Of a stretch of 64,000 bases of DNA, positions 607 through 14,080 are shown piece by piece. Source of the stretch: Ornithinimicrobium sp. INDO-MA30-4 (GTDB lineage: Bacteria; Actinomycetota; Actinomycetes; Actinomycetales; Dermatophilaceae). Position 1 is the first letter of the stretch. Each line of letters begins with the position of its first letter. The position numbers and the translations under genes are program-made. The stretch is taken from the NCBI RefSeq assembly GCF_021535045.1, contig NZ_CP091056.1:372001-436000 (forward strand), read 5' to 3'. The notes below the pieces were generated by a model that was given only the letters and a program-made list of their open reading frames with translations, was not told the origin of the DNA and did no database searches.

Positions 607-624
607 TCGTTTGGAGCCAAACGA
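607..624. promoter_or_regulatory. Palindromic operator, site A
   Basis: TCGTTTGG-AG-CCAAACGA is a perfect 8-2-8 inverted repeat that ends 22 bases before the ATG of the reductase gene. The same palindrome, exact or nearly so, recurs at 5387, 5459, 12418, 12534 and 14885, each time in front of a gene of the same catabolic island. An 18-bp dyad fits a MarR-type dimer, and a marR gene lies at 6331. Binding is inferred. Confidence 0.75.
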
Positions 625-646: not shown

Positions 647-1612
647 ATGGCTACACAGACGGTGGTCCGAGAGGCCGAAGTGCAAGTCAACGTCGTCGAC
701 GTCGTGAAAGAGGCGGACGGGGTTGTCTCACTGCACTTGGCAGCACAGGACGGCGAAAGCTTGCCGCCATGGACGCCTGGAGCACACATTGACTTGGTGA
801 TGGGCGATGGTCTCATCCGGCAATACTCACTGTGCGGATCGGCGACCGAGTCCAAGACCTATCGCATCGGCATTCTGCTGAGCCCCGAGAGCAGGGGCGG
901 CTCACAATTCGTGCACGACAACCTGCACGAGGGCGCGTCGCTGACGGTGCGTGGCCCTCGCAACCACTTTTCCTTCGCCGCATCTGCTAAATACCTGTTC
1001 ATCGCTGGCGGCATTGGCATCACGCCCATGTTGCCGATGATTGCGGAGGCCGAGGAGGCCGGGCGCGATTGGGAACTCTTCTACGGGGGTCGCTCTCGAG
1101 ACTCAATGGCCTTTCTGGATGAACTGGCCGCTTACGGCGACCGAGTCACGGTCGTTCCTCAGGACGAGGCTGGCCACTTAGATCTGCCAGAGATCCTGCG
1201 CGAGCCTCGCCCGAATACCTTGGTCTATGGGTGTGGCCCGGAGGGCATGCTCAACGCGCTGGAAGAGCAGTGCGGGCACTGGCCCTCCGGCAGTCTGCAC
1301 CTTGAGCGGTTCACCGCCAAGGAGCAAGATGCTGACGCCACCGACACTGCCTTTGAGTTGGTGCTAGAGCGCTCTGGGCAAACCTTGCAGGTGGGAGCCG
1401 ACCAAAGCGTCTTCGAAGTCGTTCGTGAGGCTGGGGTGAGTGTCTTGGGCTCTTGCCTGGAAGGCATCTGCGGAACCTGCGAGACCGAGGTCATCTCCGG
1501 CGATCTGGATCACCGCGACTCAGTGCTCGACCCCGAAGAGCGTGAATCCGGCGAAGTGATGATGATTTGTGTCTCTCGCTGCCGTTCCGCCCGACTCACC
1601 CTCGATTTGTAG
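647..1612 (+). CDS. Phthalate-dioxygenase-reductase type oxidoreductase (flavin plus 2Fe-2S)
   Basis: This 321-residue protein has the layout of the VanB/PDR family: an N-terminal flavin-binding barrel (RQYSLCG near residue 60), an NAD-binding domain (AGGIGITPM near residue 120) and a C-terminal plant-type ferredoxin domain. The ferredoxin cysteines are intact: C-x4-C-x2-C in GSCLEGICGTC and a fourth Cys in the ICVSRC stretch near the end. Such proteins pass electrons from NAD(P)H to a Rieske oxygenase or a P450. The start at 647 is preceded by a GGAGG ribosome site; the frame is open further upstream but without one. The next gene begins 20 bp downstream and encodes a Rieske homologue without functional ligands, so the real acceptor may be the P450 at 2726-3988. 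Confidence 0.85.
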   Translation: MATQTVVREAEVQVNVVDVVKEADGVVSLHLAAQDGESLPPWTPGAHIDLVMGDGLIRQYSLCGSATESKTYRIGILLSPESRGGSQFVHDNLHEGASLTVRGPRNHFSFAASAKYLFIAGGIGITPMLPMIAEAEEAGRDWELFYGGRSRDSMAFLDELAAYGDRVTVVPQDEAGHLDLPEILREPRPNTLVYGCGPEGMLNALEEQCGHWPSGSLHLERFTAKEQDADATDTAFELVLERSGQTLQVGADQSVFEVVREAGVSVLGSCLEGICGTCETEVISGDLDHRDSVLDPEERESGEVMMICVSRCRSARLTLDL

Positions 1613-1631: not shown

Positions 1632-2657
1632 ATGAGCACTAGAGAAGGCACCCGCAGCACTTTCCCCCGCAATGCTTGGTATGCGTTGGCCACCAGCGAG
1701 GACGTCGGACGTATGCCCGTGGCCCGCCGCTTGATTGACCAACCCATTCTCCTCACCCGCAAGACCTCTGGCGCCGCGGTCGCTCTGCGCGATCGTTGCG
1801 TCAATCTGCCGTTCCCGCTCAGCCGGGGAACCGTCACCGGCGACACCATCGTCGATGGCTACTCGGGTTTCACCTATTCCTTGGACGGGGCTGTCATCGC
1901 CGTTCCCACCCAGGCTGAGGTGCCCTATGACGCGAAGGTCCAGAGTTTCCCGGTGCACGAGAGCGGGGGATTGATCTATGTCTGGATTGGCGACCCAGCG
2001 GTGGCACGACTACGGCCAAAACCCTCCACGCCATGGCTTGATGACGCCGCCTGGTCAACCCTGGGCGAGGAGTGGACCACGCAGGCTGGGGCAACCCTGC
2101 TGCAGGATAACTTTTCGGACATTACCCACGTCGCCACGGTGGCCCCTGAGATTAGTCCGCCGGCTCTGCTCGGCAGCACGCCCACCCTTGAGGTCGAGGT
2201 CAGCGAGACCCGCGTGAAGTTCTGGCGCGATTTCCCTGGCCAGCCGATGCCGGCATTCCAAGCTGAGCTCTTGGATATTGACCGGGACGAGGTCTTCGAT
2301 CAGCGCGAAGAAGGCGAGTTTGTGGCCCCCGGGCAGTGGGTTGACCGCTGGACTGTGCGACGTGCTGGCGAAGAGGACCTACAACTCATCTTTAGCCACT
2401 CCATCACCCCGATCAATGGCAGTTCCACCTGGCACGCCTGGCGGGTCAGTCGCAACTTTGCCCCCGGCGCCGCTGCTGATGGCGTCCTCAAGCCCTTGTT
2501 CTTCGACTACTACGCCAAGGTCAAGGGGCTTCTTGAAGAGATGCAGGATGTGCTGGACGCCGACGGTCCTCAGCGTGAGGTGCGCGTGCAGGCAGACGCG
2601 GCGATGTTGAGCGTCCGCAGGATTATGCGCCGATTGGCTGCCGAAGAAGGAGCCTAG
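1632..2657 (+). CDS. Rieske oxygenase alpha-subunit homologue with degenerate metal sites
   Basis: This 341-residue protein aligns along its length with VanA-type aromatic ring or demethylating oxygenases. The Rieske region is recognisable but its ligands are not there: the usual CPH becomes CVN (DRCVNLPFPLSRG) and the usual CGYHG becomes DGYSG, so three of four 2Fe-2S ligands are replaced. In the mononuclear iron motif (DNFSDITHVATVAPE) the first His is kept, but the second, five residues on, is Ala. These are substitutions in an intact frame, not sequencing slips. It probably cannot act as a normal oxygenase and may be a structural or regulatory partner, or carry out other chemistry. It is co-transcribed with the reductase at 647 and followed by a strong terminator. 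Confidence 0.75.
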   Translation: MSTREGTRSTFPRNAWYALATSEDVGRMPVARRLIDQPILLTRKTSGAAVALRDRCVNLPFPLSRGTVTGDTIVDGYSGFTYSLDGAVIAVPTQAEVPYDAKVQSFPVHESGGLIYVWIGDPAVARLRPKPSTPWLDDAAWSTLGEEWTTQAGATLLQDNFSDITHVATVAPEISPPALLGSTPTLEVEVSETRVKFWRDFPGQPMPAFQAELLDIDRDEVFDQREEGEFVAPGQWVDRWTVRRAGEEDLQLIFSHSITPINGSSTWHAWRVSRNFAPGAAADGVLKPLFFDYYAKVKGLLEEMQDVLDADGPQREVRVQADAAMLSVRRIMRRLAAEEGA

Positions 2658-2725: not shown

Positions 2726-3988
2726 CTACTTGGTCGTGACCTTCACTGGGAACTTCTTGATCCCGTTGACGAAGTTGGAGCGGATGCGCTTGACGTCGCC
2801 AGTGAGCTCGATGGACTCCAAGCGTGGCAGCAACTCTTCAAACATCAGCCGGATCTCCATCCGGGCCAGGTTGTTGCCCATGCACAGGTGTGGGCTGCCC
2901 TTGCCGAAGGTGAGGTGGTCAACGTTGGTGCGGGTGACATCAATCGAGTAGGGGTTCTCGAAGTGATCGTCGTCGCGGTTGCCCGAGCCAAACCACATCA
3001 CGACCTTGTCGCCCTCCTTGATCTCCTTGCCACCCAAGACCACATCCTTGGTTGCCGTGCGGCGGAAGTGATGCACCGGGGAGGCCCAGCGCAGCAACTC
3101 TTCGACGGCCGGAGCGATCAACTCTGGGTTGTCCTGCAACTTGCGCAACTGCTCTGGCTGCTCCATCAGGCCCAGCATTGAAGAGCTGATGGCATGCCGA
3201 GTGGTCTCGTTGCCGGCGATCACCAGCAGTGTGAAGTAGTTGTCGAAGTCATCTTCGGACAGCGGGATGCCGTCGGAGGGAGCCTTGTTGGCCAACAGGC
3301 TGATCAGGTCCTTACCGTCGCCACCCTTTCGAGCGTCGCGCAGCGCACGACCGTAGTCCCAGACCTCCTGCACCGTGGGGGAGCGGAAGGGTAGGTGGGC
3401 GTACTTTTCACTCTCGGGGTCATCGAGCAAGTGAGCCGTGTAGTCAGGGTCGGTGTTGGCCACCAGTTCGTTGCCCCAGGCGATCAGCTGCGGTGTGTCC
3501 GAGAGCGGGACGTCGAGAAGTCTGGCCAAGACCTGGATCGGGAAGTCTGCGCTGATCTTCTGCACGAAGTCGAACTCTGGGTGCTGCAGGGCGTCATCGA
3601 CCGTTTTGCGGGTGATTTCGCGCAGGAACCCCTCGTAGTTCTTCATCAGGTTGCGCGGGCTGAACTCGCGCGCCAGCAACTGCTTCAGTGCCGCGTGCCG
3701 GGGACCATCTGTTTCCAGCATGGACCGGCGCTTGTCACGGTTCTCCGGGCTGACTTCCTCGAGGTTGACGAACTCCTCCGAGGTGAAGGTTTCCGAGTCC
3801 TTGTCGACGGTCCAGATGTCGTCGTACTTGGTGACGGCCCAGAATCCTGCGTCGTCAGCCTCCTCGTTCCAGTGCACGGGGTCTTCGCGACGCAAGGTGT
3901 CGAACTGAGCCCAGGCCTGACCGTCACGAAAAGCATCGAGGTCGGTGAGGTCAACGTCCTCAAGGGCTACGGGTTCACTGGGGTTCAT
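2726..3988 (-). CDS. Cytochrome P450
   Basis: A 420-residue soluble bacterial P450. Visible motifs are the I-helix oxygen-activation motif (AGNETTRH), the K-helix ExxR (EELLR) and the heme loop FGKGSPHLCMG with the axial cysteine. The heme loop has one residue more between Phe and Cys than the common FxxGxxxC pattern; I recall the same spacing in the CYP124/125/142 group. The ATG at 3988 has an AGGAG site just upstream. It follows the gamma-glutamyl-amide synthetase gene by 30 bp and should share its transcript from operator B. The likely role is hydroxylation or O/N-dealkylation of the island's substrate, perhaps on the glutamylated form; the substrate is unknown. Confidence 0.9.
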   Translation of the reverse strand: MNPSEPVALEDVDLTDLDAFRDGQAWAQFDTLRREDPVHWNEEADDAGFWAVTKYDDIWTVDKDSETFTSEEFVNLEEVSPENRDKRRSMLETDGPRHAALKQLLAREFSPRNLMKNYEGFLREITRKTVDDALQHPEFDFVQKISADFPIQVLARLLDVPLSDTPQLIAWGNELVANTDPDYTAHLLDDPESEKYAHLPFRSPTVQEVWDYGRALRDARKGGDGKDLISLLANKAPSDGIPLSEDDFDNYFTLLVIAGNETTRHAISSSMLGLMEQPEQLRKLQDNPELIAPAVEELLRWASPVHHFRRTATKDVVLGGKEIKEGDKVVMWFGSGNRDDDHFENPYSIDVTRTNVDHLTFGKGSPHLCMGNNLARMEIRLMFEELLPRLESIELTGDVKRIRSNFVNGIKKFPVKVTTK

Positions 3989-4018: not shown

Positions 4019-5371
4019 TCAGAGGTGATACGTGTATTCACGGAACTCCCAGTCCGTGATGAAGGCATTGAAGCGCTCAATCTCGTTTCGCTTATAGGCG
4101 ACGAAGGTCTTGGTGAAAGCGGGGCCGAGCAGGTCGACCATCGCTTCGTCAGCCTCCAAAGCGTCCAGCGCTTCGCCCAACGATGTCGGGAGCATATCGG
4201 CCTTCGACACGTCATAGCCGTAGCCCTCTAGCGGGTCTTGGAGCTCCAACTTGTCCCGCACACCGAGGTATGCGGCGGCCATCATTCCGCCGATGGCCAG
4301 GTAGGGGTTGGCGCTGGCGTCGCCGAGACGCAATTCGAGGCGCGAGGCCTTGCCGCGCTCTGGGGGAATCCGCACCATGGCGCTGCGGTTGTCCAAGCCC
4401 CAGTCGATCAACCATGGTGCCAAGGTGTCGGGGCCAAAGCGCTTGTAGGAGTTGATGGTGGGGTTGCTCAGTGCTGCCAGCGCGGGTGCGTGGGCAAGGA
4501 TGCCAGCAATCGCGTGGTGTGCGAGGTCAGACAGGCCGTCCTTGGAGTTGGGGCCATCAAAGACTGGGGTGCCGTCTGAGTCGAGTGCAGAGAAGTGCAG
4601 GTGGAATCCTGACCCGCCCTCATCGTTGTAGGGCTTGGCCATAAAGGTGGCGAGCTTGTCGTGATAGCGCGACAACTCTTGGACGGCCGCCTTGAACCGG
4701 TGGCTGCGATCGGCCGCGTCGAGGGCATCGGAGTGCCACATGTTGATCTCGAACTGACCAGAGCTGAACTCGTGGTTCGCGGCCACTACGTCCAAGCCGT
4801 ATTTTTCCAAGTTGCGCAGTGAGTCCAAGAGCGAGTTGTCCGGGTCCCCGCGCAGTCCGGAGACATACACATTGCCCGGAGCCTGCCCATACGGTGCCCA
4901 ACCGTTCTCGGAGGTTTCGCTCTTTTCCAGGACGTAGAACTCCAACTCGGGGCCGATCATCGGTGTGATGTCCAACTCGGCGAAGGCTGCCGCGACGCGC
5001 TTCAACACATTGCGCGGGCTCTCCTCAGAGGGAGACCCGTCGGCGTTGAAGAGTTCGCCGATGCAGTGGGCTACACCCGGTTCCCAGGGCAGGGCACGGG
5101 TCGTTTCCAGCACAGGACGCGCAATGATGTCTGGGAGGCCAGCCTCAAGCCCGCCTTCGATCGGGACAACATCACCCATCGGGGTGGTGGCGTAGACCGA
5201 GCGGCAGAAGGCCACGCCGCCGCCGGCAGTGCGCTCGAAGCCTGACACGAGAAGGTCGCGGCCCCGGTCGGTGCCAATGATGTCTGAGTAGCCCAGGCGG
5301 ACTACGTCAATCCCCTGTGCAGCAAGTTCCTCAGCCTTACGAGCCAGTTCCTCTGGATCCAGATGTTCCAT
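4019..5371 (-). CDS. Glutamine synthetase-like gamma-glutamyl-amide (PuuA-type) synthetase
   Basis: A 450-residue glutamine-synthetase-fold ligase. Visible catalytic parts are the metal-binding Glu in MIGPELEFYVL, the HLHFS motif, the Arg-containing NRSAMVRIP loop and the family signature LELRLGDASANPYLA. Its setting with PuuC- and PuuD-like enzymes and an APC permease suggests that it joins glutamate to an amine with ATP, as PuuA does for putrescine or TdnQ/AtdA1 for aniline, rather than making glutamine. The frame extends upstream to 5404, but the ATG at 5371 has a strong AAGGAGG site and gives the family length; the upstream choice would start inside operator B. It is first in a two-gene unit with the P450. 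Confidence 0.85.
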   Translation of the reverse strand: MEHLDPEELARKAEELAAQGIDVVRLGYSDIIGTDRGRDLLVSGFERTAGGGVAFCRSVYATTPMGDVVPIEGGLEAGLPDIIARPVLETTRALPWEPGVAHCIGELFNADGSPSEESPRNVLKRVAAAFAELDITPMIGPELEFYVLEKSETSENGWAPYGQAPGNVYVSGLRGDPDNSLLDSLRNLEKYGLDVVAANHEFSSGQFEINMWHSDALDAADRSHRFKAAVQELSRYHDKLATFMAKPYNDEGGSGFHLHFSALDSDGTPVFDGPNSKDGLSDLAHHAIAGILAHAPALAALSNPTINSYKRFGPDTLAPWLIDWGLDNRSAMVRIPPERGKASRLELRLGDASANPYLAIGGMMAAAYLGVRDKLELQDPLEGYGYDVSKADMLPTSLGEALDALEADEAMVDLLGPAFTKTFVAYKRNEIERFNAFITDWEFREYTYHL

Positions 5372-5386: not shown

Positions 5387-5404
5387 TCGTTTGGGTACGA
5401 ACAA
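5387..5404. promoter_or_regulatory. Palindromic operator, site B
   Basis: TCGTTTGG-GT-ACGAACAA has a perfect left half and a right half matching the consensus CCAAACGA at 5 of 8 positions. It lies just upstream of the synthetase ATG on the minus strand and probably controls the synthetase-P450 unit. Confidence 0.6.
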
Positions 5405-5458: not shown

Positions 5459-5476
5459 TCGTACGGACCCAAACGA
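5459..5476. promoter_or_regulatory. Palindromic operator, site C
   Basis: TCGTACGG-AC-CCAAACGA has a perfect right half and 6 of 8 matches in the left half. It lies 20 bp before the decarboxylase-family gene, whose transcript probably includes marR, so the regulator may control itself through this site. Confidence 0.65.
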
Positions 5477-5495: not shown

Positions 5496-6292
5496 ATGGC
5501 TGACATGAGCGGATTTCTCTACCCCGAACCGCACAAGGCAAGGGCGGCATCATCCCCAGTCCGCCGTGGTTCTACTCCGGAGATCTCCTCACGGTCGAAT
5601 ACCGCACGGACCCGGCTCGGGTCGCCGATCTGCTCCCCGCACCACTCTCGCTAGCCGAAGAAGACCCGGGCGCAGTAGCAATGATTTGGGCTGACTGGCA
5701 GTCGTGCTCTAGCTCGCGCAAGGAGCTGCTGGACCCGGTTCAGAGCCAGTACAAGGAAGCGTTCGTCGTCGTGCGCTGCTCCTATAAGGGACAGACATTC
5801 TCCCGCTGTGTCTTCATTTGGGTGGACAAGGACTTTGCCATCGGTCGTGGCCTGCACCAGGGCTACCCCAAGAAGTTGGGCTCGATGTGGCAGACCCGTC
5901 CGCACGCGTTCCCGCAGGCATCACCATCTATCGCACCCGGCGGCATGTTCGGCGCCTCACTGGCAGCCGGCGACCGCCGTCTGGCTGATGCCGTCGTGAC
6001 GCTGCGTGAAGAGTCGCCGACCAACGGCTTCGTCAACGCAAACAAGATGGCTCACCACCGTGTCTTCCCCAACATTGATGGCCCAGGGGACGCGTTCTCG
6101 GAGTTGATCTCGTCTGGGGCTGCCGAGTTCGAAGGCGGCCAGGCCTGGACCGGTGACGCGGAGTTGAACCTCTATGACTCGCCGAACGAAGAGCTGACCA
6201 GTCTGCCCGTCCAAGAGGTCATTGGCGGCTATTTCCAGCAGATTGGCGTGAAGTGGAATGGCGGCACCAGCCTGGAGCGGTTGGACGGCTGA
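5496..6292 (+). CDS. Acetoacetate decarboxylase family enzyme (frameshifted in this sequence)
   Basis: From the ATG at 5496 the protein runs MADMSGFLYPEPHK and then must shift frame near 5540 to continue as GGIIPSPPWFYSGDLLTVEY to the stop at 6292, about 265 residues. The second part carries GYPKKLGS, where the adjacent lysine pair corresponds to the Schiff-base lysine and its pKa-lowering neighbour in acetoacetate decarboxylases. Family members decarboxylate beta-keto acids or carry out related imine-type chemistry on other keto acids. In this island it could act on a ring-cleavage intermediate, since HpaF, HpaH and HpaI homologues are not seen. The frame break is probably a sequence error. 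marR follows 38 bp downstream. Confidence 0.75.
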
Positions 6293-6330: not shown

Positions 6331-6837
6331 ATGAAACTTGGAGACCATTCGCTAGCCGAATCGGAAGAAGCCATGAGGGCAAAGGTTGGAAACTTGCCCA
6401 TCGACTTCGCTTCGGCGCGAGCGGTCTCAACGCTCTATCGGGCGGCCAATGCAGCCAGAACCAAGCTCACTAACTCCGTGCTGCGTGAGCACGACATCAC
6501 CTGGACTGGCTGGGTGGTCCTGTGGGTCGTTTGGATTTGGGACGGCCTAGAGACTCGCCGCGCGGCTGAAGCGGCTGGCATCTCCAAGGCGACCTTGACT
6601 GGCGTGGTCAACACCTTGGTGACCCGCGGGTGGCTTGACCGCGCCCGCGGCACCGAGGACAAACGCATGGTGAATCTAAGCCTGACTCCTGCTGGCTCGG
6701 AGTTGGTGCAGACCATCTTTGAGAAGTTCAACGCAGTTGAGGCTCAGCTCGTGTCGCAGATTTCTCCCGAGCGCTTAGAAGAAATGACCGCTGGGTTGCG
6801 TCAGATCGTCGAGACAGTCGAAGCCGACCGGGACTAG
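6331..6837 (+). CDS. MarR family transcriptional regulator
   Basis: A 168-residue winged-helix protein with MarR layout: N-terminal dimerisation helix, recognition-helix region around AEAAGISKATLTGVVNTLV, a wing with DKRMVNLSLT and a C-terminal helix. MarR dimers bind palindromes of roughly this size and usually release DNA when a phenolic or similar ligand binds. It is the only regulator in the catabolic island, so it is the natural candidate for the six TCGTTTGG palindromes. It lies downstream of the decarboxylase gene behind operator C, which would allow autoregulation. Its stop overlaps that of the convergent PuuD-like gene by a few bases, with no terminator between them. Confidence 0.88.
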   Translation: MKLGDHSLAESEEAMRAKVGNLPIDFASARAVSTLYRAANAARTKLTNSVLREHDITWTGWVVLWVVWIWDGLETRRAAEAAGISKATLTGVVNTLVTRGWLDRARGTEDKRMVNLSLTPAGSELVQTIFEKFNAVEAQLVSQISPERLEEMTAGLRQIVETVEADRD

Positions 6838-7541
6838 CCCCGGCTGGCGTCAACGAGTTCTTTGAGCACTGCCAGTTGGTGCGGGTCAGAGTCCCAGGTG
6901 TCCTCTGGGTGCCACTGCACCCCAAGGAACCAGCCCTTCGACTCGGGCATCTCCACAGCTTCAACGACACTGTCGGCACTCTGGGCGGTGCAAACCATGC
7001 CTGCGCCCAGCGTCTTGATGGCCTGATGGTGGTAGCACGAGATGTGCAGTGAGTCACCGAAGGTTGATGCCATTCGCGAGCCAGGGGACAGGCTGATCTC
7101 GTGGCGCAAGTGTCGGTGGTCTTTGCCGATCTCTGGCACTTCGGCCATGTCGAGGTGCAACTCACCCTTGAGCAGGGTTGTGACGACCTGCAGCCCGCGG
7201 CAAATAGCCAGCAGGGGGATGCCCTGGTCTAGCGCATAGCTGGCGATCGCAAGGTCAAAGGCGTCCTGCTCCTCGTCAACGTCGTACAGGCTGGGGTGAG
7301 CCTCCTGACTGGACCAACGGTGCGAGAGATCGCCACCACCGGGCAAGACAATGCCGTCGGCAAAGCTCAGGCGCTCAGCCACCGCTTCCACATCAATCTG
7401 GGCGTCAGGTGCGTGCGGATGCACGAGCAACGGCTCTGCTCCGGCGGCATAGAGACCCGAGATCAACGCTCGCGCGCCAAGCTCGGCCCGATAGCGGATA
7501 GCCGATGCGGTTTCCGAGAAGCGACTCGGCACAGCAATCAA
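6834..7541 (-). CDS. Gamma-glutamyl-amide hydrolase, class I glutamine amidotransferase (PuuD-like)
   Basis: A 235-residue class I amidotransferase-fold hydrolase with the nucleophile Cys in LLAICRGLQ and the His-Glu pair in GVQWHPE. CRGLQ and VQWHPE match PuuD, which releases the glutamyl cap from gamma-glutamyl-GABA; the aniline protein TdnT/AtdA2 has a comparable role. The start appears to be TTG at 7541, because an in-frame stop lies three codons upstream. It begins 6 bp after the stop of the aldehyde dehydrogenase gene and is last in the five-gene unit that starts at 12400. It probably removes glutamate after oxidation of the capped substrate. Confidence 0.85.
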   Translation of the reverse strand: MIAVPSRFSETASAIRYRAELGARALISGLYAAGAEPLLVHPHAPDAQIDVEAVAERLSFADGIVLPGGGDLSHRWSSQEAHPSLYDVDEEQDAFDLAIASYALDQGIPLLAICRGLQVVTTLLKGELHLDMAEVPEIGKDHRHLRHEISLSPGSRMASTFGDSLHISCYHHQAIKTLGAGMVCTAQSADSVVEAVEMPESKGWFLGVQWHPEDTWDSDPHQLAVLKELVDASRG

Positions 7542-7547
7542 GGGCGC

Positions 7548-9052
7548 TTAGCCATATTTGACCCACGTCGTTTTCAAATCGGTGTATTCGTCCATCGCGT
7601 GGTGGGACTTGTCCCGGCCGCCGCCAGTGAGTTTGACGCCACCGAAGGGGACACTCATGTCGCCCTCTTCGTAGCAGTTCACCCAGACAATGCCAGCGTG
7701 CATCGCGTTCGAGACTCGATGCGCTCGGCCCAGATCGCTGGTCCACAAGCCGGCTGCAAGACCGTATGGCGTGTCCCGGGCAATCTCGATCGCTTCGGCT
7801 TCGGTGCTAAAAGTCTGGACGGCCAGCACCGGCCCAAACAGCTCTTCTTGCACCAACAAGTTGTCGCGAGCGGCATCCGTGATCACGGTGGGCTCAAGGT
7901 AGGGCCCGCCGGTTTCGGTGTGCACAGCGGAGCCGCCGCTGCGCAAGGTGGCTCCCTGTTCGAGACCTTGCGCTAACTGCTTCTGGATACGTGTCAGGCT
8001 GGACTTGTCGACTAGGGGACCCATCAACGTGTCAGGCAACAGCGGATCTGCTGGCTGCCACGCAGCGCTGGTCTCAATCACTCGTGTGATGACTTCTTCG
8101 GCGATGTCTTCGTGCACGACGAGTCGAGACCCGGCAGTGCACATTTCACCCGCATTGAAGAAGATCGCCCAGGCAGCCGAGTCGGCAGCAGCCTGCAGGT
8201 CGGTCGCTTCAGGAAAGATGATGTGCGGCGACTTGCCACCCAACTCCAGGTGCACCTTTTGAGGTTGCTGTCGGCGGCATACCGCATGAAGTGTCGTCCG
8301 ACCTGCGTTGACCCAGTGAACGTCAGCACGTTGACGTCCGGGTGTTCACCCAGACGTCGACCTACGACCGTGCCGTCACCCGAGAGCACGTTGAACACTC
8401 CCGCGGGAAGCCCAGCCTCCGCACCAAGGGCAGCAACGCGCTGCATCGACAGCGGCGACTGCTCGGCAGTCTTGAGGACGATGGTGCAGCCCGCAGCGAG
8501 TGCCGGGCCCAACTTCCACCCACCGATCGTGAGTGGGAAGTTCCAGGGCACGACGGCCGCGACGACGCCAGAGGGCTCACGCGTCACAATCGCCAAGTCG
8601 CCAGGTGGAGTGCGAGGATTTCGCCCATCGCCTTGTCGGCAAGACCGGCATAGAACCGCAGGCCGTTGATCAACGCCCGCAACTCGATCTCCCAGGCGTG
8701 CCCTAATTGGCTTGCCCATCTCGAGGGAGACCAGCAGAGCGATCTCGTCACGGTGCTCATCAATGAGGTCGGCCCAGCGGTTGAGCACCAAGCCACGCTC
8801 TGAGCCGGCCATCGTGGGCCAAGGGCCGTCATCGAAGGCTCGACGCGCAGCAGCGACGGCACGGTCAGTGTCTTCCACGCCCGCCCACGCCAGAGTGCCG
8901 AGGACCGAGCCGTCACGTGGCGTCAGGATCTTGCGGGTTTCAGCACCTTGCTGAAACCCGCCATCGATAAAGATGCCCTCAGGCAAGGCAATCTGTTGAG
9001 CTTTCTCGATCCAGTCGATGCTGCTGACGTGATCTACTGCCTGCGTCGTCAT
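7548..9052 (-). CDS. PuuC-like aldehyde dehydrogenase (three frameshifts in this sequence)
   Basis: The 9052 start gives an NAD(P)-dependent aldehyde dehydrogenase of about 500 residues when three frame breaks are bridged: near 8712, near 8612 and in a T4 run at 8257-8260. Recognisable parts are VVPWNFPL, FTGSTQVG, LELGGKSP, the catalytic Cys in NAGEMCTAGSR and EELFGPV. The C-terminal GDMSVPFGGVK...GRDKS...TDLKTTW pattern is close to PuuC, which oxidises gamma-glutamyl-gamma-aminobutyraldehyde. Its place beside the PuuD-like gene supports oxidation of a glutamyl-capped aldehyde. The breaks do not look biological, because all conserved motifs survive on both sides of each break. Confidence 0.85.
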
Positions 9053-9082: not shown

Positions 9083-9946
9083 TCAGTGCGTCTTGGATAG
9101 GTCAGGGCCACGGACGCCGCGGAACTCCCAATCTCCACCCTGTGCCGTGGAGAGCACCTCTTCGCTCTCCGTGGGCTGGGCTCCGACATCGCTGCGGATC
9201 GGCGTCGGGCCTTCGACAATGGTGTTGCGCAAGGTGCCAAGGCCTTCGACCTCAACCTCAACGACGTCACCCGGATAGACCGTGCGGCTGATGGCCGGGG
9301 TGCCGGACATCAGGATGTCGCCAGGTTGCAGCGTGATCGTGCGTGCGATGTCCGCGACGAGATAGTGCATGTTCCACTTCATCTCATCGGTGTTGCCATC
9401 TTGGCGGACCTCGCCGTTGACGATGGTGCGGATCTGCTTGCCCCGGAAGTCCCAGCCTTCGACGATGCCGGGGCCCACCGGGCAGAGCGTGTCGGCACCC
9501 TTGACTCGCAGCATGGAGCCGGAGTCGGTGTCGCGGAAGTCGTGCAGGCCATAGTCATTGCCGATGGAGTAGCCGCGGATGTAGTCGCCAGCCTCTTCGG
9601 GAGAGATGTTGCGGGCAGTGCGGCCAATGACGATGGCGATCTCGCCCTCGTAGTTGAGCCACTTGCAGCCCTCGGGGCGCACGACGGAGCCCTCGTGGCT
9701 ATTCAGCGCAGAGACCGGCTTGTGGAAGTAGGTCGGTGCCGGCGGCAGTGTGGTCAGCATCTCTTCGACTCGCGAGGAGTAGTTGAGGTGAACGCAGATG
9801 ATCTTGGAGGGCGTGACCGGCGCCAGGTGAGTGGCGTCGGCAATCGCTACCTCTCGGCCATCTCCGGCCACGAGAGTGTCGCCGTTGCGAACAACGTCAA
9901 CGACGTTGCCATCGAGCAGAATGCGTCGTGTTTCGCGAAGTGTCAT
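9083..9946 (-). CDS. Fumarylacetoacetate hydrolase family protein (HpaG-like)
   Basis: A 287-residue protein of the FAH fold, with the metal-binding E-x-E in NYEGEIAIVIG, the following Asp in the GNDYGLHDFRD region, and the late motif GDILMSGTPA. Family members hydrolyse, decarboxylate or hydrate keto-enol intermediates of aromatic degradation; HpaG, for example, decarboxylates and isomerises a product of homoprotocatechuate cleavage. It sits immediately downstream of the HpaD-like dioxygenase and the HpaE-like dehydrogenase, which makes a role on the meta-cleavage product the simplest reading. No frame break is seen. Spacing to the upstream gene is 8 bp, indicating tight co-transcription. 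Confidence 0.85.
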   Translation of the reverse strand: MTLRETRRILLDGNVVDVVRNGDTLVAGDGREVAIADATHLAPVTPSKIICVHLNYSSRVEEMLTTLPPAPTYFHKPVSALNSHEGSVVRPEGCKWLNYEGEIAIVIGRTARNISPEEAGDYIRGYSIGNDYGLHDFRDTDSGSMLRVKGADTLCPVGPGIVEGWDFRGKQIRTIVNGEVRQDGNTDEMKWNMHYLVADIARTITLQPGDILMSGTPAISRTVYPGDVVEVEVEGLGTLRNTIVEGPTPIRSDVGAQPTESEEVLSTAQGGDWEFRGVRGPDLSKTH

Positions 9947-9954
9947 GGTTCTCC

Positions 9955-10908
9955 TCAGCCTGCTGCGGTTAGGTCGGGGCCGCCAGTCTGGCGGACAAAG
10001 TCGGGGTCAGTGGGGGTCTGGCGAGCCGGTGGGAAGCCACCCTCGGGGCGGTCGAACCACACGTGGACTTGGCCGGTGCCGATCGAGTTTTCATACTCGC
10101 CGTACTGTCGGCCCTTCGCCGTGCAGTCTCCTTCGCCGAGCGCGCCCATCATCATCAAGTAGTGCTGGAAGCCGGCCTCGGGGCGGTACTTGCGGAACTC
10201 CGGCATGGTGTCCAAAACCCTGGCGTGGTCGCCGTCGGCAAACCACTGCAGGCGTTCGAAGTCTGCCTCAACCGCTTCGGGAGTGAAGATGTGCTCCTTG
10301 CCTGCGGCTTCGTGGTCGCGCAACTGTCGCAACGGCCAGAAGGTATGCGACATCGCACCAGAGGCCAGAAGCAAGACCTTGCGATCGCTCTCGGCGATGG
10401 CCTGGCCTAGGGCCCGGCCCAATCGCAACGCATCTTCGGCGTCGGCGGTCTGGCAGACACCGATCGAGATCCACTTCTTGTCTTCCAGGCCGTCGCCCAG
10501 GTACTCCCACAAGTTCGTGGTGGCGTAGAAGATCGGCAGGTGGTCATCCTCGATGGCAGTGATCCACGTGGAGTTATCGCTGGCCCTGGCCGCGATGGCG
10601 TGGGCCAACTCGGGGTCACCCTTGAAGGAGTAGGGGCGCTGGCACATCCCGCGCGGCAACTCTTCGGAGGTGAACAGGCCGCTGCGTTGCTCCTGAGCAG
10701 TGACAACCCATTCGACCGTCGTGGCCCAGTGCGAGTCCAGGACGACGACCGTGTCGTAGTCCGCGGTGTCAAAGACCTCCTTGCGGAGTTGCTTGATCCC
10801 GCTCACCAAAGTGGAGTCTTCGCCGTTGTTGAGTTCGCGGCGCACCTCTTCGGGCAAAACGATTGTTGGAACGTGAGCGATCAGTCCGCCACCGACAACT
10901 TCTCCCAT
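9955..10908 (-). CDS. Class III (LigB) extradiol dioxygenase, HpaD-like
   Basis: A 317-residue protein that matches E. coli-type 3,4-dihydroxyphenylacetate 2,3-dioxygenase throughout: an early iron-site His in GGLIAHVPT, DSHW, TSEELP, YSFKGDPEL, LASGAMSH, MPEFRKY and the closing GTGQVH. LigB-type enzymes use Fe(II) to open a catechol ring next to the hydroxyls. The product would be a hydroxymuconic semialdehyde, and the gene just upstream encodes an HpaE-like semialdehyde dehydrogenase. Homoprotocatechuate is a candidate substrate, but any para-substituted catechol made by the P450 would also fit. It starts 2 bp after the stop of the upstream gene. Confidence 0.9.
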   Translation of the reverse strand: MGEVVGGGLIAHVPTIVLPEEVRRELNNGEDSTLVSGIKQLRKEVFDTADYDTVVVLDSHWATTVEWVVTAQEQRSGLFTSEELPRGMCQRPYSFKGDPELAHAIAARASDNSTWITAIEDDHLPIFYATTNLWEYLGDGLEDKKWISIGVCQTADAEDALRLGRALGQAIAESDRKVLLLASGAMSHTFWPLRQLRDHEAAGKEHIFTPEAVEADFERLQWFADGDHARVLDTMPEFRKYRPEAGFQHYLMMMGALGEGDCTAKGRQYGEYENSIGTGQVHVWFDRPEGGFPPARQTPTDPDFVRQTGGPDLTAAG

Positions 10909-10910
10909 TA

Positions 10911-12400
10911 CTAGGCCTCCTCGGCTGCATCGTTAGTGTTCCAGCCGGCTGGGCTGAACACGCTGTTTTTGATGTTGGTGTAGAAATCAAACGACCAGAT
11001 GCCGCCCTCACGGCCAATCCCGGACTTGCCGTTGCCGCCAAAGGGAGCGCCCAGGTCGCGGACAAAGAAGCAGTTGACCCAAACGGTTCCTGCGTCCAAC
11101 AGGTGACTGACCCGCTCAGCGCGTTCGCGGTCACCGGTGACCAGGGTTGCGGCCAGGCCGAATCGTGAGTCGTTCGCCATGGCCACGGCTTCTGCTTCAT
11201 CGGTGAAGGTCTGCACGGTGAGCACCGGCCCGAAAACCTCTTCGCAGATGATCTCTGACTCCGGCTTGGCGCCGGCCAGGATGGTGGGTGAGAAGTACAG
11301 GCCACCCAACTCTTCGTTTGGACCGCCGCCGAGCAGGACTTCGGCGCCATCGGCCACTGCGCGTTCGACAAAGCCGGTGACCTTGTCGAAGTGGGTGCGG
11401 CTGACAAGCGCCGAAATGTCCGTGGCTTCATCGCGGGGGTCACCCTGCTTGATGGTGCGAGCCTTCTCAACAACGCGTGCAGTGAACTCCTCAGCGATGT
11501 CTTCCTGCACCAAGATGCGGAACGCGCCCAGGCATACCTGACCAGCGTTGTCGAACTGCTCGACAGCCAAATTCACAGCGAGGTCAAGGTCGGAATCGGC
11601 AAAAACCACGAGAGGTGACTTGCCGCCCAGTTCATACGACAGCGGCACGATGTTGGGGGCCGCCGCCTTCGCGATGACACCCGCCGTCGGGACAGACCCG
11701 GTGAAGGACAGGCGGTTGATGTCGGGGTGAGCCGTCAAGGGGCTCCTGCGTCGGCACCGGTTCCCTGCACCACATTGAAGACGCCGGCGGGCAAGCCAGC
11801 TTCGTGGCAGATGTCAGCGAGCAGCGAGGCGGTCAGCGGTGCCCACTCCGGCGGCTTGAGGACGACACAGTTTCCGGCTGCCAGCGCTGGGCCGATCCGC
11901 CACGTCGCCAGCATCAGCGGAGCGTTCCACGGCGTGATGATGGCCACGACACCCGCAGGGTCATAGCTCACGCGCTCGCGGTGGCCTCGGACCTCCATGT
12001 CAGGGTGGCCCAACTCTTGCTCGGCATAGTCAGCGAAGTAGCGGAAGTTCATCGCCACTCGGGGCATCACGCCCCGGCGGTGGCTCCTGATCAAGGCTCC
12101 GTTATCCCGCGTTTCAACCAATGCCAAGTCTTCGACGCGTGCTTCGATGCCTTCAGCAACGCGACGCAGGATGGCTGACCTCTCCGCCACGGGCATAGCC
12201 GCCCAGGCGGGAAAGGCAGCCCGCGCCGCGGACACCGCGGCGTCGACCTCAACGGATGAGCCGGCGCTGATGGACGCAAGCACCGCTTCATCGATAGGAG
12301 AGGTGTCATCGAAGGTGGACTGCGAAGCAACTCGCTCGCCACCGATCCAGTGTCGAGTGTCTACAGACACTCCTTCTACCACCGCGATGTGTTGGGCCAC
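10911..12400 (-). CDS. HpaE-like semialdehyde dehydrogenase (one frameshift in this sequence)
   Basis: The GTG at 12400, preceded by GAGGAG, opens an aldehyde dehydrogenase of about 496 residues. The frame breaks once in a G4 run at 11739-11742; restoring one base joins GTGADAGAP to LTAHPDINRLSFTGS. Visible motifs are ITPWNAPLML, YELGGKSP, the catalytic Cys in NAGQVCLGAF and EEVFGPV. The FVRDL motif near the C-terminus and general order resemble 5-carboxymethyl-2-hydroxymuconate semialdehyde dehydrogenase. It is first in the minus-strand unit HpaE-HpaD-FAH-PuuC-PuuD and lies directly behind operator D, so this operator probably controls all five genes. Confidence 0.88.
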
Positions 12401-12417
12401 TGCGCCTCCTCGATAGA

Positions 12418-12435
12418 TCGTTTGGGTCCAAACGT
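12418..12435. promoter_or_regulatory. Palindromic operator, site D
   Basis: TCGTTTGG-GT-CCAAACGT matches the consensus at 15 of 16 half-site positions. It lies 17 bp before the GTG of the HpaE-like gene and would control the five-gene minus-strand unit. Confidence 0.75.
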
Positions 12436-12533
12436 AATTGGGAAATGCGTCACCCGTCAAGGGTGCATGAAGATTTAACGTTCGGCCCAAAAAGGTCTTG
12501 ACGCGGGCTAGGGGTGATGTCACACTCCCAATA

Positions 12534-12551
12534 TCGTTCGGGCCCGTACAA
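12534..12551. promoter_or_regulatory. Palindromic operator, site E
   Basis: TCGTTCGG-GC-CCGTACAA has a left half with 7 of 8 matches and a right half with 5 of 8. It lies 15 bp before the permease ATG. A weaker relative (ACGTTCGG-CC-CAAAAAGG) is at 12478-12495. Confidence 0.55.
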
Positions 12552-12566
12552 ACCCAAGGAGACCAC

Positions 12567-14080
12567 ATGGAGTCGCAACGTGAAGCGCCCACCAATGAAC
12601 GCCCTGGCTTAAGATCAGGTCGACTAGGCGTCGCAGGAATTGTCTTCTTCGTCATCGCCGCGGCAGCCCCTCTGGTGGGTATGACGGGCGCTTTGCCCGT
12701 AGCAATTGTGGTTGGCAACGGAGCAGGGGCACCTGGCGCATACCTGGCCGTTGGTTTGGTGCTACTCCTGTTTGGAGTTGGCTATGCACGAATGACCACG
12801 GTGGTGACTAACGCTGGAGCGTTCTTTGCGTATGTGGCCCGCGGCCTCGGCACCGCAGCCGGTGTTGGCTCGGCCTACGTTTCCCTGGTCGCCTACCTCG
12901 CGATCCAACTGGCTATTTACGGCTTCTTTGGGGCTGTTGCTTCCGGGCAACTAGCGGCCCAATGGGGCTGGGACATCCCGTGGTGGGTGCTCACCTTGGC
13001 CGCCTGGGCGGTCGTTTTCATCCTGTCGTCGTTCCAGGTTGATGTGGGTGCCGGTGTTCTCGGCGTGCTGATGATTTTGGAGGTCGCCTCCCTGTTGCTG
13101 ACCTCCGCAGCCGTCTACCTCCAGGGTGGCGCCAATGGCTTTGACTTCGCGGCCTCATTTGCCCCAGGCAACGTGTTTGTCGGCGGCTTTGCCGGCTCGG
13201 CTGGCATCGCCCTGGCCTTCGCTTTTGCCTCGTTTATTGGATTTGAAGCGACTGCGATCTACGGCGAAGAGTCCAAAGACCCCAAGCGCACCGTTCCGCT
13301 GGCGACCTACACCGCCATCACCTTGATCACGCTGCTCTTTGCCTTTACCTCTTTCGCAGTGGTCAGTGCTTTGGGTGCTGACCAGGTGGTGGAGCGCACC
13401 GTTGAGCTCTCGTCGATTGACGGGGTGCCGCTGGCAGATTCAGCCCTGGTGCTCTTCGCGATCGCCGAGCAGTATGTCGGCGGTTGGTTGGCCACCACGA
13501 TGGGTTGGCTTGTCATCAGCAGCCTCTTCGCTGGTCTGCTGGCCTTCAAAACTCGGCAGCACGCTACTTCTTCGCAATGGGCCGCTCGGGTGCGTTGCCT
13601 AAGGGGCTAGGTCAAGCAAATGCTGTCGGCTCACCTTTGCGCGGCTCCGTTGTGGTCTCGGTCATCGCTGGTGTGGTGATTGCCATCTTTGCCGTCACTG
13701 GCGGAGACCCGATCCTGCAAATGTTCTTCTGGTTCAGCGCCATGGCTGTCGTCGCGATTGTGCTGGTGGAAATCCTCGTGTGTGCGGCCATCGTGCGGTA
13801 CTTCCGGAAGAACACCGAGGGCAGCTCGCCGTTCGCCACCCTGATTGCCCCGATAGCAGCCGCCGTTGGATTGGCGCTGGGGGAGTATCTCCTGATGTCT
13901 CGCTTTGGCTTGCTGGCTGGCACGGTCCCCGAGGGGGTTGACCCTGCTGTTGAAGCCTGGGTGCTGACTCCGTTGGGCTACTTCCTGGTCTTCGCGCCAT
14001 TCATCGCATTGGCGATCGGCTTTGCCGTCGGCAGCGTGAAGAAGAGCGACAGCAAGGAACTGCAGGACATGATGCGCTAG
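12567..14080 (+). CDS. APC-family amino acid/amine permease (one frameshift in this sequence)
   Basis: About 504 residues with roughly a dozen hydrophobic segments. The first helix region holds VFFVIAAAAPLVGMTGALPV, and the central FIGFEATAIYGEESKDPKRTVP motif is characteristic of APC transporters. The frame breaks near 13549, where one missing base separates GLLAF from QNSAARYFFAMGRSGALP; the second part is the expected continuation of the same family. It is the only transporter in the catabolic island and sits behind operator E, so it most likely imports the island's amine substrate by proton or solute symport. A strong bidirectional terminator follows. Substrate identity cannot be read from sequence. 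Confidence 0.88.

Follow-up and report, generated by a model that had tools for sequence, protein, structure and literature searches.

Ornithinimicrobium sp. INDO-MA30-4 carries a conserved gene for a homologue of VanA-type Rieske oxygenases in which the ligands of both metal centers are altered, and in the relatives that belong to the same clade the gene stands next to a VanB-type reductase gene and, with few exceptions, close to a cytochrome P450 gene. Judged from sequence, the chances are about even that this pseudo-Rieske protein is a metal-free accessory subunit of the P450 system that docks a recruited VanB-type reductase. The staged loss of metal sites among its relatives suggests that a dead enzyme has become an auxiliary component of a different enzyme.

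The Window Protein

The window is the whole 64,000-nucleotide stretch of DNA that was analyzed, and its features are collected in Table 1. The 341-residue pseudo-Rieske protein matches the Pfam families Rieske (PF00355, E 9.2e-10) and VanA_C (PF19112, E 6.8e-25), which together with a confident predicted model place it in the Rieske plus VanA_C catalytic fold. Ligand columns were fixed by alignment to dicamba monooxygenase and 130 other homologues. The Rieske ligands correspond to residues 56, 58, 75, and 78, where the window protein has C, N, D, and S in place of the C-x-H...C-x2-H ligands of a [2Fe-2S] cluster. Likewise, the set of two cysteines and two histidines that a Rieske-type ferredoxin needs is incomplete in the window protein and complete in 9 of 10 relatives from clade C, described below. 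The mononuclear-iron columns are 166, 171, and 322, occupied here by H, A, and D, so that the 2-His-1-carboxylate facial triad is incomplete. Asp322 is retained, as is Asp163, which we take to be the bridging Asp.

The homologue from Ornithinimicrobium laminariae is 98% identical and has identical letters at all altered ligand positions. This is the sole independent genome this close (G020 and L025 are the same genome). The two genes differ by 59 synonymous and 6 non-synonymous changes, giving a dN/dS of 0.027; the corresponding values are 0.031 (reductase) and 0.009 (P450). Five further pairs, all from clade A, gave values of 0.086 to 0.27, with similar values for their reductases. Sequencing error and a pseudogene were both considered as explanations and rejected, because the independent O. 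laminariae genome has the same residues and dN/dS is 0.027. The earlier note had described three replaced Rieske ligands (CVN and DGYSG), an iron histidine changed to Ala, and an uninterrupted frame with a retained fold. The replaced ligands are borne out by the alignment and by O. laminariae, the Ala by column 171, and the frame and fold by the 341 open codons, the domain matches, and the predicted model.

Table 1. Features of the window around the pseudo-Rieske gene
Position	Strand	Feature	Basis or remark
607..624	.	Perfect 8-2-8 palindrome TCGTTTGGAGCCAAACGA, operator-like, precedes reductase and pseudo-Rieske genes	0 mismatches
647..1612	+	VanB/phthalate-dioxygenase-reductase-type reductase	Profile and structure-sequence matches
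1632..2657	+	Pseudo-Rieske oxygenase, VanA/dicamba-monooxygenase fold	Open frame, 341 aa
1797..1805	+	C56-V57-N58, replaces Rieske C-x-H	Alignment
1854..1868	+	D75-G-Y-S78-G, replaces Rieske C-G-Y-H-G	Alignment
2109..2144	+	Mononuclear-iron segment N160..D163..H166....A171, second His to Ala	Alignment
2595..2597	+	D322, carboxylate ligand retained	Alignment
2726..3988	-	Cytochrome P450, convergent with pseudo-Rieske gene	Profile match
4019..5371	-	Glutamine-synthetase-like gene, same strand as and 30 bp upstream of P450	Profile match
5387..5404	+	Operator-like site, precedes glutamine-synthetase-like and P450 genes	3 mismatches
5459..5476	+	Operator-like site near start of acetoacetate-decarboxylase-family gene	2 mismatches
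5681..6292	+	Acetoacetate-decarboxylase-family protein	Coordinates of longest listed frame; start provisional
6331..6837	+	MarR-family regulator	Top NCBIfam hit HpaR, under cut-off
6834..7541	-	Peptidase C26	Top NCBIfam hit gamma-glutamyl-GABA hydrolase, under cut-off
9083..12718	-	HpaG-like FAA hydrolase, HpaD-like LigB dioxygenase, HpaE-like aldehyde dehydrogenase (two frames)	Meta-cleavage-type genes

Operator Sites, Reductase, and Pathway Context

Operator-like sites with at most 3 mismatches number six in the window against 0.26 expected, and 0 of 100 shuffles reach six. The arms of the perfect palindrome are identical in O. laminariae. A single palindromic operator type is found at four places in the cluster (607-624, 5387-5404, 5459-5476, and 12418-12435), and it is the likely site of the HpaR-like MarR protein. 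Operator-like palindromes also occur in many of the relatives' stretches; the shuffle comparison applies to the window.

Among solved structures, the reductase best matches a segment (residues 485-786) of 6kbh, a long P450 chain, and its scores against 6kbh and 6laa (289 and 263 bits) compare with 205 bits for phthalate dioxygenase reductase. We take both chains to be class VII self-sufficient P450s of the CYP116B type. The reductase has the Fer2 (plant-type [2Fe-2S]) and NAD-binding matches expected of a CYP116B-type redox partner, and its ferredoxin domain matches that of NdmD (6icm_D); a profile scan for a Rieske match at E≤1 returned none. The shared operator and intact reductase that the earlier note reported thus hold up, with a perfect palindrome before the reductase, six sites in the window, and both reductase domains retained. 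In the P450, what is presumably the heme-ligand motif was recognized by eye.

The neighboring genes include glutamine-synthetase-like, PuuD-like hydrolase, PuuC/HpaE-like aldehyde dehydrogenase, HpaR-like regulator, and HpaD-, HpaE-, and HpaG-like genes, as well as an amino-acid-type permease, the named NCBIfam matches all scoring under the curated thresholds. Genes for ring cleavage are found again in the majority of clade A stretches and in part of those from clade B (they are absent from L203 and L252), and also in 5 of 6 examined clusters that have such a P450 and no pseudo-Rieske gene. From this gene content, the cluster may encode a route for aromatic amines whose last stage is ring cleavage of the homoprotocatechuate type. 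The acetoacetate-decarboxylase-family gene aligns as one stretch between the window and O. laminariae genomes. A PuuC/HpaE-like aldehyde dehydrogenase gene (7548-9052) occupies two frames in the window and a single open frame in O. laminariae, reflecting either an assembly error or a recent lesion; the HpaE-like gene (10911-12718) perhaps likewise spans two frames in the window.

Ligand States Among Relatives

A total of 131 usable homologues was pooled. A scan of bacterial genomes, seeded by two peptide patterns of the A1 alignment, contributed the best 80 of 101 relatives, and the other sources were 58 relatives, 396 genomes of the order, 394 genomes of the class, handle searches, and two plasmid searches. 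Fifteen rows were excluded: ten copies of included rows, L161 and L215 (one fragment, from G468), the partial matches L014 and L015, and L166, a long and distant protein with canonical ligands save for Phe at column 322, where the alignment was taken to be off. Near-identical rows (L021/L025, L027/L041, and others) were each counted singly, and as the rows are related, the counts are non-independent. The genome samples are partial, and the window's genome is 75% complete by a tool's estimate.

Ligand variation in the 131 rows is restricted to 27 proteins, which form one clade with support of 100/99 in a tree of 61 of the rows. The alignment with VanA-type oxygenases that the earlier note had called for shows the canonical ligands (C, H, C, H and H, H, D) across the seven columns in each of the 104 rows outside this clade, and O. 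laminariae shares the altered letters of the window protein. Clade A (12 rows, support 93/82) is made up of the window protein, O. laminariae, a Micrococcales MAG, four Nocardioides/Pimelobacter proteins, four mycobacterial proteins, and G039. All 12 have lost the second Rieske Cys and His as well as the second iron His (Asp in 10, Ala in 2), and the first iron His is retained. All five clade B rows (L034, L252, L205, L204, and L203) have C-H-C-C at the Rieske columns and Gln166 and Ala171 in place of both iron histidines. The resulting C-x-H...C-x2-C pattern is predicted to form a naturally occurring 3 Cys-1 His cluster within a Rieske fold, and the model of L034 is confident (pLDDT 91.5). 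In clade C (10 rows), nine proteins keep all Rieske ligands, the exception being L242 with C75 changed to Ser, and nine have lost at least one iron His, while L226 retains every ligand.

A changed iron site is combined with an intact Rieske site in 8 of 10 clade C rows, and the reverse combination, in which the Rieske site is altered and the iron triad complete, was found in 0 of 27 clade members. By parsimony, at least 10 column changes are required over the six varying ligand columns, five at Rieske ligands and five at iron histidines. Both sites changed along the A+B stem, where either could have gone first. A clade-A-like protein from G819, outside all counts, has C, H, A, and T at the Rieske columns and H, D, and D at the iron columns, and reductase, P450, and glutamine-synthetase-like genes lie alongside its gene.

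The claim that both metal centers were lost applies best to the window protein and is less secure for clade A as a whole, where 10 of 12 proteins retain a His-Asp-Asp set that might bind some metal. It is possible that some other metal chemistry was kept or gained, with His166, Asp171, and Asp322 forming a 1-His-2-carboxylate site. That arrangement is present in 10 of 27 clade members, and Asp163 and Asp322 are invariant in 131 of 131 rows. However, Ala171 leaves the window and O. laminariae proteins with a single His and a single Asp, Gln166 and Ala171 occupy these columns in clade B, and clade A has no complete Rieske site for electron feed. We regard this explanation as improbable.

An even less probable alternative, to which we give very little credence, is that the protein is an inactive subunit in a mixed oligomer whose active Rieske oxygenase is encoded at another place in the genome. 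Other Rieske-domain matches do exist in the window's genome, and alpha3alpha'3 hexamers are listed for Rieske oxygenases in an excerpt of PMC12445004. Against this, an active close paralogue was sought as the oligomer partner and the candidate was rejected: no other relative is found at E≤10 in the window's genome (75% complete), nor a second match at E≤1e-5 in that of O. laminariae (G020, 99% complete).

Association With the Reductase and the P450

Gene neighborhoods were counted at 91 loci flanked on each side by 3 kb or more; 40 of 131 had less than 3 kb of flank on a side and were excluded, with the non-canonical rows all retained. Six queries, four of which came from counted loci, were used to search for P450s at E≤1e-8, and P450s distant from all six could be missed. 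The P450s of L035, L220, and L245 are also matched by the window P450, and that of L217 by the Tsukamurella P450. A P450 lies within 4 kb in 26 of 27 loci inside the clade versus 2 of 64 outside it. When divided by ligand state, the counts are 25 of 26 non-canonical versus 3 of 65 canonical loci (L087, L217, and L226), for which Fisher's test gives p 5e-18, ignoring relatedness. Since L226 has a P450 and all ligands, P450 association is suggested to have preceded ligand loss. A VanB-type reductase is adjacent (at most 75 bp away) in 27 of 27 clade members and within 4 kb in 41 of 64 loci outside.

The one exception within the clade is L028 from Nocardioides sp. Root240 (G471), whose P450 is on another contig with acetoacetate-decarboxylase and ring-cleavage genes. 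The G471 cluster is divided over L028, L201, and L202, with the reductase and pseudo-Rieske genes sharing one contig. In clade B, the P450, reductase, and Rieske-like genes stand in tandem. On a plasmid of Tsukamurella tyrosinosolvens (L216:3509-7041), the P450 and VanB-type reductase are fused in an 828-residue frame whose end is overlapped by 4 bp by the Rieske-like gene, and the encoded Rieske-like protein has intact cluster ligands and Asn in place of one iron histidine. L222 has the same contiguous layout, and L223 has one 813-residue frame.

Among these partners, the reductase is the constant one. A P450-first search gave matches at E≤1e-110 in 31 of 394 genomes of the class, 30 besides the window's own. 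Fifteen of those 30 also have a Rieske-like match at E≤1e-15, only six of them at E<1e-100; G468, additional to the six, has a clade fragment at a contig end, and the best matches in the remaining eight are canonical proteins. The seven best reductase matches in the 30 genomes (E≤3.5e-125) fall in exactly those six and G468, and the next, from G667 (E 3.9e-110, 60%), lies beside a canonical oxygenase. The proposition that the P450 never occurs without the pseudo-Rieske protein is wrong, as most P450 homologues in the class sample are without it. In seven genomes with P450s 56-63% identical and similar clusters (G445, G674, G614, G593, G655, G548, and G759), no such reductase or pseudo-Rieske protein was found in the fetched stretch, and such P450s therefore do not need the pseudo-Rieske protein. 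Beside the P450 in three clusters without the gene (L207, L214, and L210), no other redox partner was recognized among the frames read by eye.

A tree of 89 reductases recovers clades A, B, and C in the same arrangement, with B weakly supported (93/46). At 19 of 27 loci, the mean identities between groups other than A and B are 27-35% for P450s, 55-62% for reductases, and 34-54% for Rieske-like proteins; between A and B they are 63%, 66%, and 47%, respectively. Hence the reductase and Rieske-like protein travel together, with P450s of different families. Purifying selection, the reductase in 27 of 27 members, the P450 in 26 of 27, and the matching trees support the earlier idea of a pseudoenzyme that is kept in connection with the reductase and the P450; any of the roles named in that note (scaffold, sensor, or new chemistry) may apply.

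Genomes Without the Gene

Two genomes from one genus in the window's family, G085 and G237, have no pseudo-Rieske gene, their best matches (E 9e-4 and 8e-5) covering short stretches. Both retain the P450 (75 and 74% identical), with a reductase 4.3 and 6.4 kb from it, respectively. The G085 reductase nests in the clade A reductases as sister to L026 (99/95), on a long branch that calls for caution. The two reductases (L200:6338-7369 and L254:4996-6024) have in common a 21-column insertion before the RQYSL motif, for which we assume an FMN role, and an operator-like site immediately precedes that of G085 (L200:7409). The regulator, C26 hydrolase, and ring-cleavage genes were sought in the stretches of G085 and G237 that were read and were not found, and the P450 there may therefore serve another route.

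These genomes bear on the possibility that the protein is a remnant heading for loss, once a partner but by now dispensable and in gradual decay. The gene is not found where the P450 and reductase of the lineage persist, and between clades A and B the Rieske-like proteins have diverged faster (47% identity) than the reductase (66%) or the P450 (63%). Such decay is at odds with dN/dS, which is 0.027 for the window lineage, spans 0.086-0.27 across five other pairs from clade A, and resembles that of the reductase, and with the open frames and confident predicted fold. We consider a remnant unlikely, only slightly less so than a protein with other metal chemistry.

Proposed Mechanism

On the docking explanation, a VanA-type oxygenase and its VanB-type reductase would have been recruited jointly as an electron supply for P450s. 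The oxygenase would then have been freed from substrate oxidation, and its mononuclear iron site may have decayed because the oxygenase was no longer needed to oxidize a substrate. In clade C, the Rieske cluster could still pass electrons from reductase to P450, and in clade B the relay might run via the different (3 Cys-1 His) cluster. In clade A, with the Rieske site lost, only docking would be left. The folded body, trimeric in its family, would dock the ferredoxin domain of the reductase and position it, and probably the P450 too, so that electrons could go directly from the reductase's own [2Fe-2S] cluster to the heme. A precedent for such docking appears in an excerpt of PMC12445004, in which the ferredoxin domain of NdmD binds at the trimer boundary of the oxygenase NdmA. 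For the window protein, we infer the absence of metal, the physical contact, the trimer, the electron route, and the order of loss on the A+B stem from sequence comparison. A point against docking is that gene neighborhood can reflect a shared pathway instead of a complex.

Alternatively, the protein may be a substrate- or ligand-binding subunit, whose remodeled active site binds the P450 substrate and delivers or signals it; the substrate would probably be an aromatic amine or a glutamyl derivative of one. This is the strongest rival to docking, though on balance we think it rather unlikely. In the 17 A+B rows, 22 positions hold a fixed or nearly fixed residue that occurs in at most 15% of rows elsewhere. 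Of these positions, eight lie in what the predicted model gives as strands and a helix of the former catalytic domain, namely W236, D238, W240, F254, F290, Y293, Y294, and V297, all fixed in 17 of 17 rows, and on this evidence a new ligand pocket fits as well as a scaffold. Position 297 is Val in clades A and B versus Asp in all 104 rows outside and all 10 clade C rows. Clades A and B also share a single P450 family, and their pathway clusters overlap in large part. However, the lining of a pocket by these residues is deduced from secondary structure alone, and the constant partner is the reductase rather than any single P450 family, clade C being found with quite different P450s.

Extending the docking reading, the relatives could represent stages of a new three-component P450 class, running from a relay (C) through a 3 Cys-1 His relay (B) and a metal-free adaptor (A) to a system from which the component is gone (G085 and G237). 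We put this series forward tentatively, at somewhat less than even chances.

Comparison With Known Systems and Implications

Compared with DdmC/VanA-type oxygenases, the window protein lacks three Rieske ligands and one iron His and is encoded beside a P450. On the P450 side there is a likeness to the CYP116B type, as the window reductase matches the C-terminal part of these proteins and the Tsukamurella genes form a P450-reductase fusion. In the window, by contrast, the P450 and reductase are separate genes accompanied by a third protein, and we know of no Rieske-like partner for class VII self-sufficient P450s. In the two-component GcoA/GcoB system, the P450 is fed directly by a three-domain reductase with its own [2Fe-2S] cluster. 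The window system would be alike in its direct feed from the reductase [2Fe-2S], as proposed here, but has a third component. NdmC of caffeine demethylation is a Rieske-oxygenase homologue that has no Rieske cluster and is kept in a complex, where it retains its mononuclear iron and receives electrons from a Rieske domain on NdmD. The window protein differs from NdmC in that Ala171 interrupts its iron site, and the window reductase has no match to the extra Rieske domain that NdmD carries. A literature search of titles and abstract openings, covering few subscription journals, returned no description of a triad of P450, VanB-type reductase, and Rieske-like protein.

If the docking explanation is correct, P450s can take over the half of a Rieske oxygenase system that supplies electrons, and the other half, the oxygenase, can be retained after the loss of its two metal sites. 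Two large oxygenase worlds, usually treated as alternatives, would become linked. This also raises a testable question, whether a relay protein needs a redox cofactor or whether positioning of donor and acceptor suffices, for which the clade series offers natural controls at each stage, including the predicted 3 Cys-1 His Rieske fold. The reductase/Rieske-like gene pair might serve P450 engineering as a transferable redox partner. On the tentative staged reading, living bacteria would preserve the steps by which an iron enzyme became a metal-free subunit.
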